From Asterella californica (taxonomy: Eukaryota; Streptophyta; Marchantiopsida; Marchantiales; Aytoniaceae), in NCBI GenBank assembly GCA_036924285.1, contig JAYKYS010000005.1, positions 1,922,001 through 1,986,000 of the forward strand: a DNA stretch of 64,000 bases, given 5' to 3'. The stretch's first letter is position 1. The number at the start of each line of letters is the position of its first letter. The notes under the pieces are model-generated. The model made no database searches. It saw nothing but the letters and a program-made list of their open reading frames with translations, and was not told where the DNA came from. Below are positions 1,992-50,805 of this stretch, in pieces. The position numbers and the translations under genes are program-made.

Positions 1992-3628
1992 TCATTTTGG
2001 GCTTGCTTTATCACCAGACTTTACAACTAGAAAACTAGACATTGGCGCCACTCCAGAATCCAAGCTCAATTCTGCTGCTGAAGTAGTTGATATAATGTCT
2101 CCTCTTCCATCTGAAGGTTCGATACTTAAGTTAAGGTCAGGAAATGTTTGATCCGTTGTCACCAACTGATTGTGTTTCCAACAGTTACAAATAGTTACTG
2201 CAGAAACATCACATCTCCAAGCTTTTTCAACCATCTGTGCGGCTTCGTATATATCCACTTCCGCATTCTGAAACTGGGTAATCTGATCCAGTTTATGCTC
2301 AATCAAGTACTTTTGGTAATGTGCTTTAAAAGCACGTATGATCCCTACATCAAGAGGTTGGAAGATAGCATTAACATTTGGTGGAAAAAACTCAATCCGA
2401 ATGATGGAAATCTGTGACTGAATATTCACCATCCTGTGACCTGCCAAATTATCTAGTAGTAATAATGCATTTGTTTTTCCCGCAAGATGTAGTCGAAATC
2501 AAGCATAAACGTTTCAAATAGGTCGATGTTCATCCAAGCTCACTTGTTGAAAATGATTCTAAGATTCTAAGATTATCATATCTTTGAATGTTCCTGCGAG
2601 TGAAAGCATGCGGCCTACAATACTTATAAATCAGAAAAGGTGGAAGTTTTATTGACCCAGTCATGTTTGTGCTCAAAGCAACTGTGATCGTTCTTTCATC
2701 CATTTCTTTCTTCGTAACTGACGTGTCCAGGTAACGATTTGGCTCTAAACGATAGAATAATCTTGTTTCGTCCATGTTGAAAACAACTTCAGGATCGTAT
2801 GTCATGATCAGCGCTTTCAGACGTTCAATCTTGTCCATCACCTATTCCGTATGTTCACAGATGCAGATTCTCCATGACGAATGTAGCTCCGAATATCCTG
2901 CCTCACGGCTTTGTACAAAGAAGAAGAAAAAGACAAGAATGTTAAAAGAAGAGACGCGGAAGGACCCACGACCTTGTATACTGAAGGAAGGGGTGTGTAA
3001 AATATATATAATTCCTAACTGGGGTACAGTGGAAATTCCTAACGGCAGAAATACAGTGAAGAAAGTGAGGGAAAGGAAAAATACAAGCGCTTGGTTTTAT
3101 GAATAAAAGTCAAAGGACAAGTCTAAATTGAAACATCTAAATTTAAGTGTCTAAAATTAAATTACTATATTTAAAAACTTCAAATTTAAACATATCTTAG
3201 GCTAACGGAACACGTGGACTCCAGAGACCAAAAGAAACCATAAGTGCAATCAGTCTATTTGGAACTAAACCACTATAAGTCAAATGTATTTTACGGATGA
3301 GATGAACGTTTGAGATATTATTTACGAGCTAACCCTTCCTAAAAGAAAGATTAGCTCATAAATAACACCCGTGTACATGAGATGAATATCCTGTCTGATC
3401 CCGAATACCATGTCTCCTCTTAAATCCTTGGAACCAACCATGAGAGAACAACATTTCATTCCCATCAGGAGTTCCGACGGTGTTGTAAAACATACGTGCT
3501 TGTGATGTCACCAGCTCGTCTGACAGAGTAATGTTATTTTCTTGCATGGAAAAATACCATGCAAACAAAACTATCTCCGTATCTAGACACTCAGGTTTCC
3601 TAATCTTTTTCTCATGAATCCTTTCCAC
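1992..3628 (-). pseudogene. pogo/Tigger-type (Tc5-like) DDD transposase, broken
   Basis: This is the relic of a cut-and-paste DNA transposase of the pogo/Tigger group. On the minus strand the CENP-B/Tc5-type DNA-binding helix-turn-helix lies at 3628-3390 (key stretch SHGWFQGFKRRHGIR). The catalytic DDD domain follows: the first Asp in FNMDET (frame ending 2841), the second in LLDNLAGH near 2450-2430, and the third in QPLDVG near 2350. All three acidic residues are still visible. The coding frame is broken by at least two frameshifts (near 2845 and 2470), by stops, and by a 483-bp insertion at 2901-3383 that falls just after the GIR motif. The C-terminus ends at 1992. It is a dead copy; the family assignment is solid, the exact subgroup is not. 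Confidence 0.85.
2901..3383. mobile_element. hairpin-bearing insertion inside the pogo relic
   Basis: The transposase frame stops matching at one point and resumes 483 bp away. The two joins carry the same ten bases, GAATATCCTG, at 2891-2900 and 3384-3393. The insert has no coding capacity. Near its right end it has a long hairpin (arms about 3328-3347 and 3350-3364, around CTAACCCTT) and ends in ACATGAGAT directly before GAATAT. Other copies of this hairpin family in the window also end in GAATAT. The direct repeat could be a target duplication, or a recognition motif present both in the target and at the element end. Confidence 0.7.
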
Positions 3629-30487: not shown

Positions 30488-31385
30488 CTATTCACTCTTC
30501 GCAGCTGCCTGTGGTGACTGAAAATTGTCGACAGCATTCAACGGGAACACGTCCGCCGGCAGTGTTACTGGATTCTTCAGGACAACGTACGCCTTCTTGT
30601 AATCAGGCCTTCTGATGTACTTCTTTGACTTCCTGCTTACTTTCTTCTTCCCCTCCATGTTGAGGGTGTGAACCTTTTCTACCTCCAGTCCATAGACTGA
30701 CTCCAGAATTCTCTTGATCTCAATCTGCAAGTAATAGCCAAAAGGAACAAGGCGGCCACGTTTAGAGTCCAAAAATGATTTTTCATCGGCCGTGCATTCC
30801 AGCGCTTTAGCATCAACTTCTAAAGCTTATCTCTGCCGAGATGATTCGAAAACTCGGCCCAAATTTTAAGATCACATAAAGTGCCTGATATCCTAGTGTT
30901 GCTCCGGATGACAGATCTCTCACAGACGAATTTACTGCACACCAAATACACGGAACGCTTACATCTCATCACGACGGGTGCACTGTCGTAGAGTAATCTG
31001 TCGCTGTAGTACACACAAACACAAAGAACTGTAACGATCGAGCTCATGCGTTGAGCTCGCCCGACCACTAGACTAAGTATCTTGCCACCACGGTTATCAT
31101 TCTAGCTCTGGCGCTTTATCTAATTACAATGAGGATCACTCGAAATTCATCACATCTTTCATCAATGACTCATCTCCTAGTATAGAACAAACCGCTTACC
31201 GACTACCCATTCCGCTGGACGAAAACAAGGACAGGGTTCACCGTGCGCACTCATACCTTCGATGCGCTAGGAACAGTCTTGAACGCAACCTCCTTAATAT
31301 TCTCTCGTTGATTTGGCATCAGCAACTTCAACGGGAGATTCGCAAAATGTATCACTCTCCCTAACTTCTTCGCGACCGATGCCAT
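30488..31385 (-). CDS. mitochondrial large-subunit ribosomal protein uL23m
   Basis: Exon 1 is 31385-31257 (43 codons, start MASVAKKLGRVIHFANLP) and ends at a GTATGA donor. Exon 2 is 30724-30488, after CAG, and ends at TAG; both are phase 0, giving 121 residues. Diagnostic are NLPLKLLMP and KTVPSASK in exon 1, and EIKRILESVYGLEVEKVHTL followed by MEGKKK and DYKKAYVVLKNP in exon 2. This is the uL23 fold: the helix IKRILE and strand VEKVHTLN that contact 23S rRNA near the tunnel exit, then the basic loop and final strand. Plant mitochondrial L23 has this same order. The bacterial-type YKKAY strand excludes cytosolic eL23. It is divergent to DPH2, with starts 724 bp apart. Confidence 0.9.
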
Positions 31386-39420: not shown

Positions 39421-39860
39421 GGTATCATATCGAATTCTGCATGAAGGTTTTTCAAGAAAATGTGAGGTTTTTGGCTGTGAAGATATCACGTGCTGAATAG
39501 AGACAAGTATTGAATAAAGACAAAGAGAAAAACAACCACGAGAACAAGCTTTGCAAGATATACCAACCTTCAATTTATATACACTCTCGCTTTTTTTTTC
39601 TCAATGAACATAAAACTTAGAAATAGACTTGAGTGGTATGTAATCTGCACCCAACCTCATAAAACAAGTATTTGAATCCCAACCTAGACCCAAAACTATT
39701 GAACCGTAGCTCAAAGTAAAGAAAATAACCTTTTGTTAACAAAAAACTTTGCATCAGTATCGCACGATTCAAACAACATCCATATACAAGCTCTTAGCTA
39801 AAACTACCTATCACAAGCCACACATAACAAACTAGAACTCTAACGACTCCAAAAGGACGA
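39420..39860 (+). repeat. second copy of the Rep-element 3' region, left part
   Basis: Aligned by eye with 10370-10795: shared phrases include GAGGTT(C/T)(C/T)TGGCTGTG, AACAACCACGA, GTAGCTCAAAG and ACTCCAAAAGGACGA. The copy is cut at 39860 by an LTR element and continues at 43991. Confidence 0.8.
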
Positions 39861-40153
39861 TGTCACGTTAGTTTGATACTTCGGTTAGGTTGGCCGAGTG
39901 CAGAGCGGCTAATCTCGATAGGACCGCTAGTGCCGTTAAGGCGAGTTCTTGGGATAGCCCACTAGAGATATACTTCACAAATAGGGCTTGGAGGCCTTAG
40001 TTCTTCGAGTTGAGCCTTCAAGCTCTTGGCTATGGTGGATAGTCTTGATGAGTGCAATCTGGATTCTCTGTGAGCAGAGAGTGGACTTGGCTCGACTTTA
40101 GTGATTGTTTAGTGCCGATTGGCATGGTGGAGTGAGTACATATCATTTATCAC
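39861..40153 (+). repeat. 5' LTR (shared part)
   Basis: The start is fixed by the TG end and the interrupted host repeat. The similarity to the right-hand copy is in two blocks (39861-39953 and 40127-40153); about 170 bp between them are missing from the right copy. Its true 3' border is uncertain. Confidence 0.6.
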
Positions 40154-40309
40154 TCAAAGAACTCGAATTGCGAGGTCTGATTGAGAGATTACAGATCGTG
40201 GATTTCTACCGGTGGTATCTTTGGAGTTTGCATATCGTTGGTATCTTCGATTCGCGGGTGCTCACGTACACGAAGTGGTTCTTTTTTATTGTGTGGGTTG
40301 ATCGTTGTG

Positions 40310-40358
40310 CAGATTAGTGGTGGTTGGACCAAGAACAGATCCAACCACCACTAATCTG
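40310..40358. repeat. perfect 19-bp hairpin
   Basis: Arms 40310-40328 and 40340-40358 are exact reverse complements around an 11-base loop. It lies in the leader of the methyltransferase LTR element. Confidence 0.95.
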
Positions 40359-40604
40359 GTCGGATTTGTGTTGAGGTAGTGTGAAAGCGCTGCTGGAATT
40401 TCCTATGACGGGTTTTGAGGTCAATTTGAGATCTGCAGAAGTGCGTCGGCTGATGTCAATAGTAGACGTGGGTTAGGAGGCATTGAGAGACTTCGAGGAT
40501 CAGAGGTGCGTGAGAAGCGGAGGCGAGATTGTGGAGACGGAGTGGAGTCCGAGTCCGCCGCAAGTCAGCTTGCTGGCGTGCGTGAGAGAGGTATGCAAGC
40601 TTCA

Positions 40605-40712
40605 GTTGTGTGAGAAGTGTAAAACTAGCAGGTCACCCATCTCAACATTATTCCTGAACTTGCACACTTAACTCTGCAGTTCTTAGCTTTGGCTTTACCA
40701 CTAGACCAATAG
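40605..40712 (-). repeat. 5S rRNA-derived module with tRNA-like D-arm
   Basis: On the minus strand, AGTTAAGTGTGC (complement of 40662-40673) and GAGATGGGTGACCTGC (complement of 40628-40643) match the box A and box C promoter elements inside plant 5S rRNA, in the right order, followed by a tail ending CACACAAC where 5S ends in CGTGTTG-type sequence. Just upstream on that strand is GGTCTAGTGGTAAAGCC (40691-40712), like a tRNA D-arm. It is too diverged to be a working 5S gene. 5S modules in LTR elements are known from Cassandra TRIMs. Confidence 0.6.
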
Positions 40713-41197
40713 CTCTTGGTGACTTCTACGGATACGTGCAAGTACTTATGGACTTGTTTAAGGTAGAAGTAGACCTTCTCGCACGTTCTTAGAGGAGTGA
40801 TAGGACTACCACATAGTACTAAAGAGAAGTTGTCGTTGTGGTAGTGTTCACTTATATCGTAGAGACGCGTATGGAGGCAGTTGGAGGTACTTTAGTTCTG
40901 ATATGAGATACGAGATCGAGAGCTGCGTAAGAGAGTCACAGATGCCACTCTTCTTAGAGACACCGCTCCGACCTTGACTGTTGTCTTTGATCTAGTTGAG
41001 CGGATTGAGCTCAACATGGTGGAGGGAGGGTGGTGACTGCTAGGTTCAACAAGGAGGCACCACATGAGACTACCACCTCTTCTCGAGGATCACATGCTAC
41101 ACAACAGCGTGGTGGTGGTGATGGTGGTGGTGATAAGGATCGTGCTGAACAGTCATGATCCCAGGGAGGTGTTGGAGGACCTCGTGGGCAGAAGCCC

Positions 41198-42400
41198 ATG
41201 CTGTCCTTCTTTAATCAGCAGCAAGTGGGTCCTTGCTGGACGTGTGATGGTCCTCATCAACAGAAGTATTGTCAACAGAGGAGAGGTGGTTATGAGACGT
41301 CTGAGACATCTCAAGCGGTGCCTAGACAGTGTGAGCATTGCAAGCGATCAGATCACAATAGTGATCTTTATTTTGATCTCCACCCCGAGCTACGGCAAGA
41401 GAAGGCTGATCGTGGACGAGAAGGAGGAGCTTAGGGAGGCCGTGGTGGTCGAGCTGGAGGTAGAGGCCCAGCACTTGAGAAAGGACCAGTCGATCCACCG
41501 TCTGCTACGATGTCAGATGCGAGTATGGCTGCTCGAATTGAGCAGTTGGAGCATAGAATAGCTAATATGGCTATGGCTCAACAGAGATCTGATTCAAGAA
41601 TAGAGGCTTCCACGTCTTATGGAGGAGAAGGAGTTGACTTCGACTTCATGGTTGGTGTGACGCAGATTGAGACATCTACAGTACTGACTCGAGGTGTAGT
41701 ACGTGTCTTTGAGTCACGAGGTGCGTCGATGGAGTTGGATCCACAACGCGGGGAGGTTGGTAGACATGTCAGGTTTCCTCAATCATTCACGTCATCCGAG
41801 ACGTTGAAGACCACGTCTATGATTCCTAAACGGCCTACCGATGGTGCAGTGGAGTTAGAGACATCGACATCCAAGAGTGGGGGTGATGCGAGTCAACTCT
41901 CGATGTCTGTGGATGCAACGTCAAATCCAATGTTGAGGACGACTATAGTAGTTTTGCGAGTCTCACTATTTTCAGCCACGGATATGAGGGCACTGGGAGC
42001 CAGCTTGGCTCTAGTATTCCAGTTGACGGTCACGCTCAGTGAGAACGAAGATGTAGTTATCTCTAGTGATGAGGTGGTTCACCGAGAGACTATAGATGTG
42101 CCCACGGAGTCGAAGATCATGACAACTATCAGTGGTACTTGGCAAGCAGTGGCTGCCATGTTAGATGAATTATCAGCTAGGCCGGCGATTGACCGTGTTG
42201 GTTTGGCACCAAGTGTGATGTTGTTGGACAACAGAAGTGATATCTTCTGTTTGATGACACCTTCAGGCAAGGCGTCTCGACCATAGAAAGTCTTGTTGGA
42301 CTCTGGAGCCCAACCGTTGATGTTGAAGAAGACGACGTGTATTGGTTTCGGTCTGAGAAAATCCGAGGTGGAGAGATGTTGATTTTTGCCACAGACATCT
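41198..42400 (+). pseudogene. retroelement gag zinc knuckles and aspartic protease
   Basis: One frame runs from 41198 through 42400 with stops at 41432 and 42284. It begins with two zinc-knuckle-like motifs, CWTCDGPHQQKYC and CEHCKRSDHNSDLY (the last Cys replaced by Tyr), then a Gly/Arg-rich stretch and a heptad-like helix ARIEQLEHRIANMAMAQQR (from about 41530). It ends in the retropepsin-type active site VLLDSGAQPLML (near 42289-42330), where D-S-G is the catalytic triad. The two stops and the altered knuckle mark it as inactive. It is the N-terminal half of the polyprotein whose other half is the methyltransferase. Confidence 0.75.
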
Positions 42401-42417
42401 CTAGGAGGATCATGAGG

Positions 42418-43553
42418 TACTACAACGATACTTGTATGTGGAGAGAGATGAGATTACGAGACGCATCTCATGGCGTCATATGACACGTTTGGTGTAGAGA
42501 TATCTTGAGTTGTTGTCTATATAAGCCGTTAGAAGATACCAGCAAGCATTATTGTCGGATATTTCGCTGTTAGAGGCGCAGGATCTCACGTTTGTTGACA
42601 TCATTCACTTGATGATAGCCGGGTGGTCATGTCCAGGTCACACACGTGCTGAGAGAGGTCATGGTTTACACGACCCGCAATCTAAGATGGTTTGAGACAT
42701 GTTACGGATCTTACTACATCTCCAGATGCATCAGATGGATTCTCCAGCGTACATCTTGGAGAAATTTTCTTTGTTAGATGATGCTAGTACACAGATGATA
42801 ACGAGTGTGCACCAAGTGCGGTCTTGGGTTTGATCGGCAGTGCTGTTAGATGCAACGAGAGTGAAATCTCATGCACATCGTCCACGGTTGTGGTGGACGA
42901 ACTTGTTATCGAGAGAGGTGCTTAAGCGTGCACACGATGGAGTGGGACGACCAGCGCACCTCACGGTTGAAGACATCTTGGATGCAAGACGACGATCTCA
43001 AGTAGTGAGAGTCGTCCATGACAGTGGTGAACCTAGTGAGACGACCCATGACAACGTTGCTCACGTTGGTGAGCTTTCCAACGTCATATGCTTACAGAGA
43101 TGAGGACTTGGGCTTGTGTGGGATGCTCTGTTACAGCAGTTGGTGGAGCTCAATGCCGATGAGAGAGAGCAAGCAATGAGTTTCCCTACGAATACGACGG
43201 CAATAGCTTCGATGTCAGAGACTTCAAGTCGTCGGGTGTTGAGTCAAGCAATGGACTTTAACTGCTTGACATGGATTGTTAGTCTTGGATTGACTGAGCA
43301 GCGTCGAATACGATCGACGAGTGTTACTTCTCGAACATTTCTGAGCTCTTTGTCTACCGGATTGGTGGAGGCAAAGGCTGGGGGTAAGGCGTGTGCAGTT
43401 TGTCATCCTTGGACATCATGGGGTGTCGTAGGAGAGAGTGTGGAGCTTGCAGCTATGACTGTAAGAGTTTTTTGCACAGTGGAGGTGGAGGTTTTTGGTG
43501 GTGCTTTGCGTGGTATGGATTACAGACAAACGACTAACGATGAAGCGATGTAG
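42418..43553 (+). pseudogene. cytosine-5 DNA methyltransferase domain of the LTR element
   Basis: Five in-frame stops (42495, 42522, 42693, 42831, 43101) interrupt a domain with the C5-methyltransferase motif order. RYLYVERDE (42426) fits the motif II acidic strand. IAGWSCPGHTRA (Cys codon 42630-42632) is motif IV with the nucleophile; the usual PCQ reads SCP. YILEKF is motif VI, normally ENV. AHRPRLWWTNL (from 42873) is motif VIII. AMSFPTNTT (near 43177) matches motif IX GFP, and QAMDFNCL (near 43245) motif X. Motif I, the S-adenosylmethionine loop, is missing: the protease part is followed almost directly by motif II, as if about 250 codons were deleted. The C-terminal tail ends at 43553. 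It is dead in this copy. The class assignment is by motif only. Confidence 0.75.
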
Positions 43554-43655
43554 CACCCGGCCTTCTGATCCTTGCATCCATGAAGGTGTATATCACATAG
43601 TTCAAATATGGGGTTATCTGGAGTTAGAGGGACCTAACCGTCAGTTAGGATGACG

Positions 43656-43990
43656 ATTGTGGTACACTTGTGTATGTGTATAACCTCGTCCATGTGTTAT
43701 GTGTATGTGTGGTGTATCTCTGACAGCGATGTATGTTTTGTAACGATGTGTATGTGCACGACAGCTGTCACGTCAGTTTGGTACCTCGACTAGGTTGACC
43801 GAATGCGGAGTGGTTAATCCCGGTAGAACCGTTAGTGCCATTAGAGCGAGTTCTTGGATGGAGTGAGTACATATCGTTTATCATTGTGGTACACTTGTGT
43901 ATGTGTATGACCTCGTCCATGTGTTATGTGTATGTGTGGTGTATCTTTGACAGCGATGTATGTTGTGTAACGATGTGTATGCGCACGACA
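43656..43990 (+). repeat. 108-bp repeat twice, second copy as the 3' LTR end
   Basis: ATTGTGGTACACTTGTGTAT...GCACGACA occurs at 43656-43763 and again at 43883-43990. The TGTCACG LTR start (43766) lies between them, two bases after the first copy. The right LTR (43766-43990) thus ends with the same 108 bp that precede it, which suggests either tandem LTRs or an LTR recombinant. Confidence 0.8.
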
Positions 43991-44215
43991 ACGAAAATCG
44001 TAGTGAAAGAACCGAAGAAGGTATATCTAGAAACTTTTTCTCTTTATCAAACGGTCTTCATATGTCGATAGGGTCTTCTTTCTTAACTCTATTGGCTACA
44101 GGAACTTTCAGATCCGGGTTCTGATGGTTGAAGTATCTTTTTATTTTCAGTCGTAGGTGATCGAACTTTCAAAACCTCCTCATGTGGCTTAAAATCATGT
44201 ACACCTAGGAAAGAT
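43991..44215 (+). repeat. second copy of the Rep-element 3' region, right part
   Basis: Continues the alignment with 10796-11010: GAACCGAAGAAGG, GATAGGGTCTTCTTTC, GAACTTTCAGATC, and the array motif TCAGTCGTAGGTGATCGAAC. Similarity ends at about 44210. Confidence 0.8.
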
Positions 44216-48826: not shown

Positions 48827-49900
48827 CTACTCATTCTGCATCGGTCTCAATGTCGAACGCGGAGCACTGACCCAGAGACTATCAGCCACCGCGAAGCGCC
48901 ATAACGCAGCCACATCTTCCGGTTTAGCATAATCGATTCCCACCCTGGGACCGACTAGTATGTTTTCAGCCGGGGGTGCATCGAGTATTTCCAAACCCCC
49001 GGGGGTGTAGAGAGGATGATTCGTCCAGTCTGTAGTTAAACCGAGGGCCTGACCAACTTTGCCCGGTCCAGTTAGAAGTATCGGTTTTTCAGTGGCTTGA
49101 CCCCTTCGATCCTGTATGGTTTTCAATCCTGCAACTGGAGAGCACGCTCTTATGAGGACCGCTGCTCCGACATCGACACTATCAGCCACCACGTTCAGCA
49201 TAAAGTGCAACCCGTAGCAGAGGTAGACGTATGCATGACCTGCAGGACCGAATAATGGCTCGGTGCGAGCAGTCCTGCCCACTCGAGCGTGGCATGCCGT
49301 GTCGTTAGGTCTGTAAGCCTCTACCTCAGTAATCTGCAGTATCACATCATCTCGCCGGATAAGCTTTCTAAGAAGTTTGGGAGCCAACTCCAAAGCATCA
49401 CACTCGAAAAAGCTTGCGTCCAGCCTCCTGTAATCGTACGAGTTACTGCTACAAAGTGCTTCTTGCGCCTTCCCTGCTGTAGGAAATGAATGTATGCCGC
49501 TTGAAGGGACTAGTCGATCCTGAGCCTCCGAGGAAGTAGCATTCGTTGAACAACGCTTGACACGCGAAGATCTTGCCGTCGCTGCACATCTGGTCTCGGT
49601 ATGCTCATCTCTTTCAAAATTGTCAATCTTGACCGCTTTCGTTGTGGCCCTCTGCAAATCCCCTCCGCAGTCCGATTTTAGGACTCTCTTGCGCAGGGAG
49701 GAGCGAACGCTCTTCCTTAAAGAATCGGTCAAAGCAAACTGGGACAATTGTTGCGTCCTGAGTGATCGCCTCTTCTCCCCTTTACCTCCGATCTCTACCT
49801 TCGCGGAGTTCACACTGGGCGATGGCAGTGCCTGCTGCCCCACAGCAGCAGGTGATTTTGTCATGGAAGTGTCGTTCTCTAGGGAGCGATTGAGTTTCAT
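48827..49900 (-). CDS. 3-methyladenine DNA glycosylase (AAG/MPG type)
   Basis: This glycosylase removes alkylated purines, such as 3-methyladenine, in the first step of base-excision repair. The frame is a single uninterrupted exon. An upstream ATG exists at 50005, but the stretch between is weakly coding-like, so I start at 49900 (MKLNRSLEND), giving 357 residues. The core starts about 160 residues in with DASFFECDALELAPKLL. Residues matching the human active site are visible: ITEVEAY (catalytic Glu and stacking Tyr), CHAR (His), GLHFMLNVV (Asn) and AVLIRA (Arg). GPAGHAYVYLCYG and PILLTGPGKVGQALGL are typical of the plant/bacterial form. The N-terminal 150 residues are basic and Ser-rich, without domain, and probably disordered or targeting. 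I see no sign of decay. Confidence 0.93.
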   Translation of the reverse strand: MKLNRSLENDTSMTKSPAAVGQQALPSPSVNSAKVEIGGKGEKRRSLRTQQLSQFALTDSLRKSVRSSLRKRVLKSDCGGDLQRATTKAVKIDNFERDEHTETRCAATARSSRVKRCSTNATSSEAQDRLVPSSGIHSFPTAGKAQEALCSSNSYDYRRLDASFFECDALELAPKLLRKLIRRDDVILQITEVEAYRPNDTACHARVGRTARTEPLFGPAGHAYVYLCYGLHFMLNVVADSVDVGAAVLIRACSPVAGLKTIQDRRGQATEKPILLTGPGKVGQALGLTTDWTNHPLYTPGGLEILDAPPAENILVGPRVGIDYAKPEDVAALWRFAVADSLWVSAPRSTLRPMQNE

Positions 49901-50005
49901 TTGGACAGTAAGTAGAAATAAGTCACAGCAAAGGAAACTCTTGTCAACCGTGACAGTCCTTCGGAATTTCGTCGAATGCCGACGTTGTTCAGGAGTTGAC
50001 CCCAA

Positions 50006-50805
50006 TTGTCAAAGTCAGCATCTACTGGGCAGATCTTTTTCCCGGGGGAACAAGACACTCACGGGGTAGCTCCGGACTCGAGAGGTATCCCGATCAAGGT
50101 TCGGGGAGGTTGCTTAGGAAAAACTGCTTTTCGCCGGAAAATAATTACAGGAGATCGGTGGCATTGTTTTACTTCCCACTTCCCAAGAAATTTAACGTAA
50201 AGCATACACTTTCCGATGATAATTAAAGAGATTAAGGATTTTTCCAAAAATGTAGTTTACTTCCGCAAAGTTTCTGATTGTTTTTCTAAACAAACAGTTT
50301 TTCCTGATTGCAATCTTTCGGAAGTCTAAAAAAATTTGAAGTCAGTTTCTTCGATTCCACCACTATCAAACTCGTGTGTTTCTGTGAGTACTACGCAAGA
50401 CTCACATATATGTCTGTTTATAACAGAACTTGTGACTAAAAAATACTATACATATTGAGAATGTAAACACTTATTGTGAGAACTGAACACGAGAACGCTC
50501 TAACTGGGGCAAGAGATCCAATCCCTTTGGAATACAACTGAGAGCTGTATTAATGAGAGGGTTCCCAAGAACTCCCACACACATATTGAAATCACAGAAA
50601 AGATAAAATATTCAGTCGTGACGCAACTCTTGTCAAACAACTAACTTTCAGACACTGGAACAGTAACACTACAAGAATCTCGATTCGAAGAAGCTGAACT
50701 CAAATGCACAGCAGGATGCGTGTCCAGGTGCTTATACTCTATGTTATTTTTTCACAGAAATAACTTCAGAAAGAAATTTTTCGTCTCCTCCAGTATCTTC
50801 TAAAC
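50006..50805. other. no gene seen
   Basis: 5' flank of the glycosylase gene, where its promoter should lie. It becomes AT-rich toward 50.8 kb. I see no motif worth naming. Confidence 0.5.

Follow-up and report, generated by a model that had tools for sequence, protein, structure and literature searches.

How does an element bounded by terminal repeats come to carry a cytosine-5 (C5) DNA methyltransferase and no reverse transcriptase (RT)? The question is raised by positions 39861-43990 of a 64,000-nucleotide stretch of the genome of the liverwort Asterella californica (contig JAYKYS010000005.1), the whole of which is referred to here as the window. The initial annotation placed gag zinc knuckles, a DSG protease and methyltransferase motifs in one frame between long terminal repeats (LTRs), and proposed a non-autonomous element that modifies DNA. 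RT and integrase are indeed absent from the window copy, and its intact relatives bear out the prediction that an LTR-type element in a land plant carries a C5 methyltransferase, which is of the DNMT3 class. As a whole, however, the feature is best explained, with high confidence, as a decayed copy with internal deletions, belonging to a Ty3/gypsy-type family that is present in many copies in a liverwort and was active recently.

The pieces of the window element have no match of their own in Pfam (E up to 1) or PDB, and in PHROGs they match only families of unknown function (best 0.0014); the domains are recognisable because intact relatives supply the comparison. These relatives were found by searching the assembly (516.7 Mb in 773 contigs) with the C5-methyltransferase profile PF00145, as the initial annotation had suggested; 123 of 1250 first-pass candidates were scored. 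Sixteen of the 123 lie in open frames of 1367-1381 amino acids (loci L009-L024), and all 16 were fetched. In every one, an open reading frame (ORF1) encoding gag, protease and DNMT3 ends at a single stop codon, behind which pol continues in the same frame as ORF2. RT, RNase H and integrase are therefore kept by the intact members, the very result that the initial annotation had named as refuting its proposal, so that neither a non-autonomous design nor a constant lack of RT and integrase holds for this family. In 10 copies ORF2 stays open throughout the DNA that was fetched, and in six (L009, L012, L018, L022, L023 and L024) it is interrupted. L013 and L016, the two in which an open ORF2 was traced to its end, give its complete length as 1041 amino acids; both ends of these elements are known, and their coordinates give an element length of about 10.0 kb. 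PF00145 (DNA_methylase, 4.5e-9) was the sole Pfam match in ORF1 of L009, the zinc knuckles and protease of intact ORF1 being identified by eye. ORF2 of L013 matched RT (4e-33), RNase H (2e-36), H2C2 (8e-17) and rve (1.7e-14), and L029, the continuation of L013, a PHD finger (1.1e-11). The resulting order of gag, protease, DNMT, RT, RNase H, integrase and PHD contains the gag-protease-RT-RNase H-integrase order of Ty3/gypsy elements.

The ratio of nonsynonymous to synonymous differences per site (pN/pS) among the 16 copies is as low for the DNMT (0.19) as for the protease (0.19), followed by gag (0.24), the knuckle region with the linker behind it (0.27) and the linker before the DNMT (0.50). 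The short ORF1 tail gave a ratio of 1.67 at a very low pS: over the last 75 codons of ORF1 pS is 0.016 and pN 0.026, compared with a synonymous divergence of 0.055-0.077 elsewhere in ORF1. This low pS may reflect a constraint on the RNA ahead of the stop, or else the small counts involved.

By its motifs and its modelled fold, the enzyme of the intact relatives is a DNMT3-class C5 methyltransferase. Motifs I, IV (PC), VI (ENV), VIII and X follow one another in unrearranged order, and sequence matches in PDB are headed by DNMT3A, DNMT3B and DNMT3C (best 9.3e-10, weakest 2.6e-5), with HaeIII (0.0073) and DRM (0.0078) next. An AlphaFold2 model of one relative, P0005, has a mean predicted local distance difference test score of 56.5, with ten-residue means of 67-92 over residues 541-640, 54-87 over 661-770 and 40-47 over 641-660, around motif IV; the top 50 of 125 Foldseek matches to this model (E up to 0.001) are DNMT3-family structures by title. 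Across an alignment of 26 relatives, each residue of PCQ, ENV and HR.R is either invariant or conserved to 90% or more; motif IV reads PCQ in this family and PCN in DNMT3A.

A midpoint-rooted tree was built from motif I-VIII segments, with 44 of 47 database proteins passing the coverage rule and a sampling that left CMT, MET1 and DNMT5 aside. It unites 45 retroelement DNMTs in one clade (100/98), apart from 13 viral-contig enzymes; the placement of the retroelement enzymes beside host DNMT3, DNMT3A and DRM receives no firm support (88/49), among many long branches. No relative of a protein piece from the window was found among the viral contigs. An alignment search of the same contigs gave 14 loci, taken to be phage methyltransferases from their weak similarity and their source, 13 of which served as the outgroup. 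One relative, P0033, has a single ORF with the order protease-DNMT-RT-RNase H-integrase-PHD. A different arrangement is seen in P0035, P0037 and P0046: the DNMT has its place between RNase H and integrase rather than between protease and RT, with a PHD finger close to the end. In the tree these three belong to one nested group of 12 rows (100/99).

The window element fills the annotated interval from end to end and is flanked by a 4-bp target-site duplication, ACGA, read directly at 39857-39860 and again behind the right end at 43991-43994. All of its repeats and coding remnants lie on the plus strand. The left terminal repeat, A1, begins with TGTCACG and spans 39861-40152, its end being set to match where A stops in L013 and L016; over positions 39861-40096 it shares about 79-81% identity with the A1 of intact copies. 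A leader remnant 5' of gag (40472-40887) matches, in parts, the corresponding leader of intact copies at 78-86% identity. It runs up to deletion junction 1 (40888-40893), where about 1.33 kb with the gag start has been lost and where the intact sequence has GGCAGT at either edge. The C-terminal part of gag and a linker remnant follow (40894-42283), closing at the stop at 42284 and containing another at 41432; positions 41435-42283 share 70% identity, in the aligned part, with residues 467-725 of P0002, the intact ORF1 of L009. Gag zinc knuckles survive here as remnants. The first, CWTCDGPHQQKYC (CX2CX3HX4C, 41234-41272), was read from the translation, and the second (41330-41371) is incomplete, with Tyr in place of the last Cys when compared with P0002. 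The annotated DSG protease is present as a remnant of the active site, DSGAQPLML (42299-42325), also read from the translation.

Deletion junction 2 (42420-42421) removed 671 bp, comprising the rest of the protease, the linker and methyltransferase motif I, and altered the frame. Behind it lies a DNMT3-like remnant without motif I, together with the start of the ORF1 tail (42421-43503), at 86-87% nucleotide identity to intact copies and 68% protein identity over 341 aligned residues to residues 1021-1359 of L009 ORF1. Alignment to the intact protein locates the regions of motif IV (42591-42650, with SCP where the intact copy has PCQ), motif VI (42747-42776, with EKF where it has ENV), motif VIII (42867-42905, SHAHRPRLWWTNL) and motifs IX/X (43149-43277, LNADEREQAMSFP ... 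RRVLSQAMDFNCLTWI). A methyltransferase was correctly recognised in this stretch, as a remnant whose catalytic PCQ is altered and whose motif I is deleted. At deletion junction 3 (43503-43504) the end of ORF1 and the entire ORF for RT, RNase H, integrase and PHD are lost. The element closes with a 3' untranslated remnant (43504-43655), within a stretch 89-90% identical to L029/L030, and with three repeats: B1 (43656-43763) and A2 (43766-43882), the latter with its middle deleted, both placed by sequence comparison, and B2 (43883-43990), which forms the right end, closes with CGACA and is 96% identical to B1, each B being 108 bp long. Two further features were observed at the left side. The leader contains an inverted repeat (40311-40357) whose 18-bp arms pair perfectly around a loop of 11 nt, and 13 bases of either arm were found in none of the five intact-copy loci checked. 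Directly left of the element, window 39613-39828 matches L016 13-239 at 78%, as a repeat near two copies.

Four internal stops interrupt the gag/protease frame (41432, 42284, 42380 and 42413) and five the methyltransferase frame (42495, 42522, 42693, 42831 and 43101), and the two remnants lie in different frames rather than in the single frame annotated. With its frames broken by nine stops and motif I deleted, the window copy is, judged by its sequence, inert. It cannot modify DNA, because motif I is gone and both frames contain stops, and the activity proposed for this element must be given up.

The genome was also searched with the DNA across each junction, the best 40 of 3199, 2594 and 2312 first-pass candidates being scored for junctions 2, 3 and 1, respectively. 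The window alone spans each junction: none of the 39 other places listed per search shares it, each matching one side, and the search for junction 3 additionally lists the window's own B2. Because no other scored match spans its junctions, the lack of RT and integrase looks like a deletion private to the window copy. Deletion 3 as an exact splice product was ruled out, since the junction does not fit GT...AG.

The terminal repeats are of the annotated TGTCACG type but do not form a simple LTR pair. Their order in the window copy is A ... B, shortened A, B, and in L013 and L016 it is A-coding-B-GC-A-B, with A1 and A2 identical at 294 of 294 positions. Twelve further right ends were sought, that of L024 standing outside the search, and 13 copies, together with the window copy, had two readable ends. 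The flanking 4 bp are identical in 12 of these 14 copies and agree at three of the four positions in the remaining two, L010 and L017. These insertions are recent, since A1 and A2, measured in 11 copies, are the same at 290-294 of their 294 positions. Ty3/gypsy elements have the same LTR at both ends, whereas here the left end is A and the right end B; the DDE integrase (rve, 1.7e-14) and the short target duplications, by contrast, are those of Ty3/gypsy. The rve domain and the target duplications together argue that the integrase of this family is of the DDE type. The split direct repeats, A-coding-B-A-B, are those of DIRS elements, yet the pieces of ORF1 and ORF2 scanned with Pfam contain no match to a tyrosine recombinase, with rve instead, and 4-bp duplications are present. 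Since split repeats coexist with a DDE integrase and 4-bp duplications, the route of replication may be neither that of classical LTR elements nor that of DIRS.

At the boundary of ORF1 and ORF2 all 16 copies read UAG-CAG-UCA. The consensus for type I readthrough is UAG_CAR_YYA (PMC3542737). The signal is thus present in 16 of 16 copies, and the frame beyond it is open to the fetched edge in 10 of 16. Tobamoviruses employ type I readthrough of the same form, UAG followed by CAR-YYA with an in-frame extension containing the polymerase (PMC3542737); for the window's family, readthrough is predicted from the signal. Nucleotide diversity is 0.011-0.014 per site in the 120 nt around the stop; in ORF1, examined over 1.5 kb, it is otherwise 0.018-0.046. 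Whether ORF2 is reached by readthrough or by splicing, the methyltransferase could be made without RT, at the level of Gag, unlike an enzyme positioned in a Pol ORF.

Beyond the class of the enzyme, its conservation and its position in ORF1, which the sequences show, we infer a cycle involving readthrough, packaging and enzyme activity on a particular target. Most ribosomes would halt at UAG and produce Gag-protease-DNMT, and a minority would read through to yield a fusion with RT and integrase. Since most would stop there, the methyltransferase would be made at the Gag level and would probably enter the particle, where it could methylate new complementary DNA (cDNA) either ahead of integration or as this takes place; a role of the PHD finger may be to steer the integrase to particular chromatin. 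The window copy would have completed this cycle at its insertion and, later or during reverse transcription, would have lost three segments, including the S-adenosylmethionine-binding motif and all of pol. More broadly, the family may represent an old streptophyte retroelement lineage, active in liverworts, in which a DNMT3 made at the Gag level through readthrough of the tobacco mosaic virus type is packaged and methylates the element's own cDNA in the particle, with replication following neither the classical LTR nor the DIRS route. We offer this wider proposal tentatively, as a possibility.

A number of points weigh against our interpretation, which draws on sequence comparison. Because the 16 copies were chosen by the length of their open frames, young and intact ones are over-represented among them. 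The right end of L023 was not found, no B-A-B end is present within the fetched 4 kb 3' of L009, and the A...B-A-B repeats are unexplained by standard LTR reverse transcription. The pattern of decay is also a poor match. C-to-T changes in the window copy affect 27 of 144 CHG, 48 of 555 CHH and 14 of 164 CG sites, counted over 2193 sites invariant in intact copies, a count that omits sites variable among those copies and may hide CG change. The singletons of the 16 copies give 64 of 437, 116 of 1265 and 45 of 380, respectively. C-to-T decay is thus raised at CHG and not clearly at CG relative to CHH, which does not fit heavy, lasting self-methylation at CG. In the junction searches, a sharer should outrank one-sided matches, whereas strongly diverged sharers could have escaped detection. 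The low diversity around the stop is equalled in several 60-nt stretches of ORF2 (0.010-0.016) and so does not separate readthrough from splicing, and a candidate in-frame intron of 78 nt, GTGAGC...GTGACAG, could remove the stop. A separate candidate, strand-biased editing of cDNA, was unsupported, G-to-A changes per G and C-to-T changes per C being alike.

Were the 78-nt intron spliced out, ORF2 would be reached without readthrough, unspliced RNA giving the DNMT alone and spliced RNA RT and integrase. Its removal would preserve the frame, and the proteins P0009 of Marchantia and P0022 of Sphagnum continue from DNMT into RT without a stop, as if across an intron; P0022, however, misses essential parts of the DNMT elsewhere too and so looks like a prediction artefact. 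The exact six-base signal after UAG, expected by chance about once in 500 with uniform bases, is unchanged in all 16 copies, an argument weakened by the fact that much of the junction region is likewise unchanged. On balance, splicing seems unlikely. That the enzyme acts on host chromatin instead of the element's own cDNA, spreading or relieving silencing near insertions, is a rather doubtful alternative, for which the sequences show no clear CG excess of decay in family copies and which they do not tell apart from cDNA methylation; even so, a Gag-level enzyme under selection could act anywhere in the nucleus, the integrase ORF ends in a PHD finger, and de Mendoza et al. propose effects on the host epigenome (PMC5890265). 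Conservation of PCQ, ENV and HR.R in 26 relatives, a pN/pS equal to that of the protease and the finding of an earlier study that retrotransposon DNMTs methylate CG de novo (PMC5890265) all make it improbable that the domain is catalytically idle or merely binds nucleic acid in the particle, despite the PCQ that replaces the PCN of DNMT3A. A genuine non-autonomous family, with protease and methyltransferase, without RT and integrase and spread in trans, is hardly credible: although the window copy retains its two ends between perfect target duplications, which means that it once transposed as a unit, and although its deletions could predate insertion, arising in reverse transcription (junction 1 has 6-bp microhomology), none of the 39 other places listed among the best 40 scored in each search spans a junction, and with motif I deleted and the frames broken no methyltransferase could be made.

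Elsewhere in the window, a transposase fragment with a DDE_1 domain (Pfam 5.4e-19) was identified at 1995-2498 (minus strand), a partial gene for ribosomal protein L23 (8e-13) at 30491-30826 (minus strand) and a methylpurine-DNA glycosylase gene (PF02245, 2.2e-52) at 48830-50008 (minus strand); ARAGORN predicted no tRNA gene in the window. By score, the glycosylase points to a liverwort host, being closest to sequences from Marchantia (67% identity over 88%), from Riccia (63-64% over 88%) and from Calypogeia (61% over 79%). Matches labelled Cornus florida (first, 618 bits, best local identity 74% over 31%) and Quercus suber (fourth, 472 bits) possibly reflect contamination or misannotation. 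The assembly also has seven complete copies of rbcL with equal scores, distributed over six contigs (C73, C281, C367, C394, C759 and C773), which probably represent repeated plastid sequence.

Relatives of the Pol protein are found in Calypogeia fissa (83% identity over 92% of the query), Riccia (81% over 61%) and Marchantia (two proteins, 82% and 68% over 52% and 72%), and more distantly in Klebsormidium nitens (42-47%, including P0215 at 47% and P0231 at 45%) and Closterium (as high as about 45% with almost the whole length aligned). Eleven of 118 new Pol relatives, in a list confined to proteins of 0.55 to 1.75 times the query length, also match a DNMT query. The DNMT part itself is 76% and 68% identical to P0003 and P0004 of Marchantia and 50% to P0022 of Sphagnum, and Closterium P0228 and P0241 have the same succession of DNMT and RT. 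These DNMT-bearing, gypsy-like proteins of Closterium, Marchantia and Sphagnum carry the database labels hypothetical or unnamed.

Methylase-carrying jumping genes in land plants seem to have been little noticed. A literature search, with most subscription papers outside its reach, found no description of DNMT-carrying elements in liverworts or mosses. A 2019 perspective presents land plants as lacking such retroelements (PMC6338049), and a 2025 paper, citing the work of 2018, mentions that DNMT3 has been reported in retrotransposons of streptophytes and dinoflagellates (PMC12344493). The window copy is a relic, unremarkable when taken alone. The family, in contrast, offers a tractable land-plant setting, Marchantia being a model plant, in which to ask why a transposon would carry an enzyme that normally silences it, and it presents a clear case of split repeats combined with a DDE integrase, unexplained by standard models of reverse transcription.

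Among known systems, the dinoflagellate elements SymbioDIRS-Dnmt3 and SymbioLINE-Dnmt are likewise retroelements with a C5 methyltransferase of their own, and SymbioDIRS has the same repeat order (PMC5890265). They are, however, tyrosine-recombinase or LINE elements, whereas the family described here has a DDE (rve) integrase and 4-bp duplications. The closest known system is KnitGypsy-Dnmt3 of K. nitens, described by de Mendoza et al. in 2018 (PMC5890265), which shares Gypsy-type domains, a DNMT3-class methyltransferase, DIRS-like A-coding-B-A-B repeats and purifying selection on the DNMT. The two are related in Pol; the retroelement DNMT clade of our tree (100/98) holds no named K. nitens DNMT. 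They differ in that the DNMT is described as lying within the Pol ORF in KnitGypsy-Dnmt3 and, in the family of the window, lies within the Gag-protease ORF before the UAG-CAG-UCA stop. The latter is further distinguished by its liverwort host, by its 4-bp target duplications and by the PHD finger that follows its integrase.

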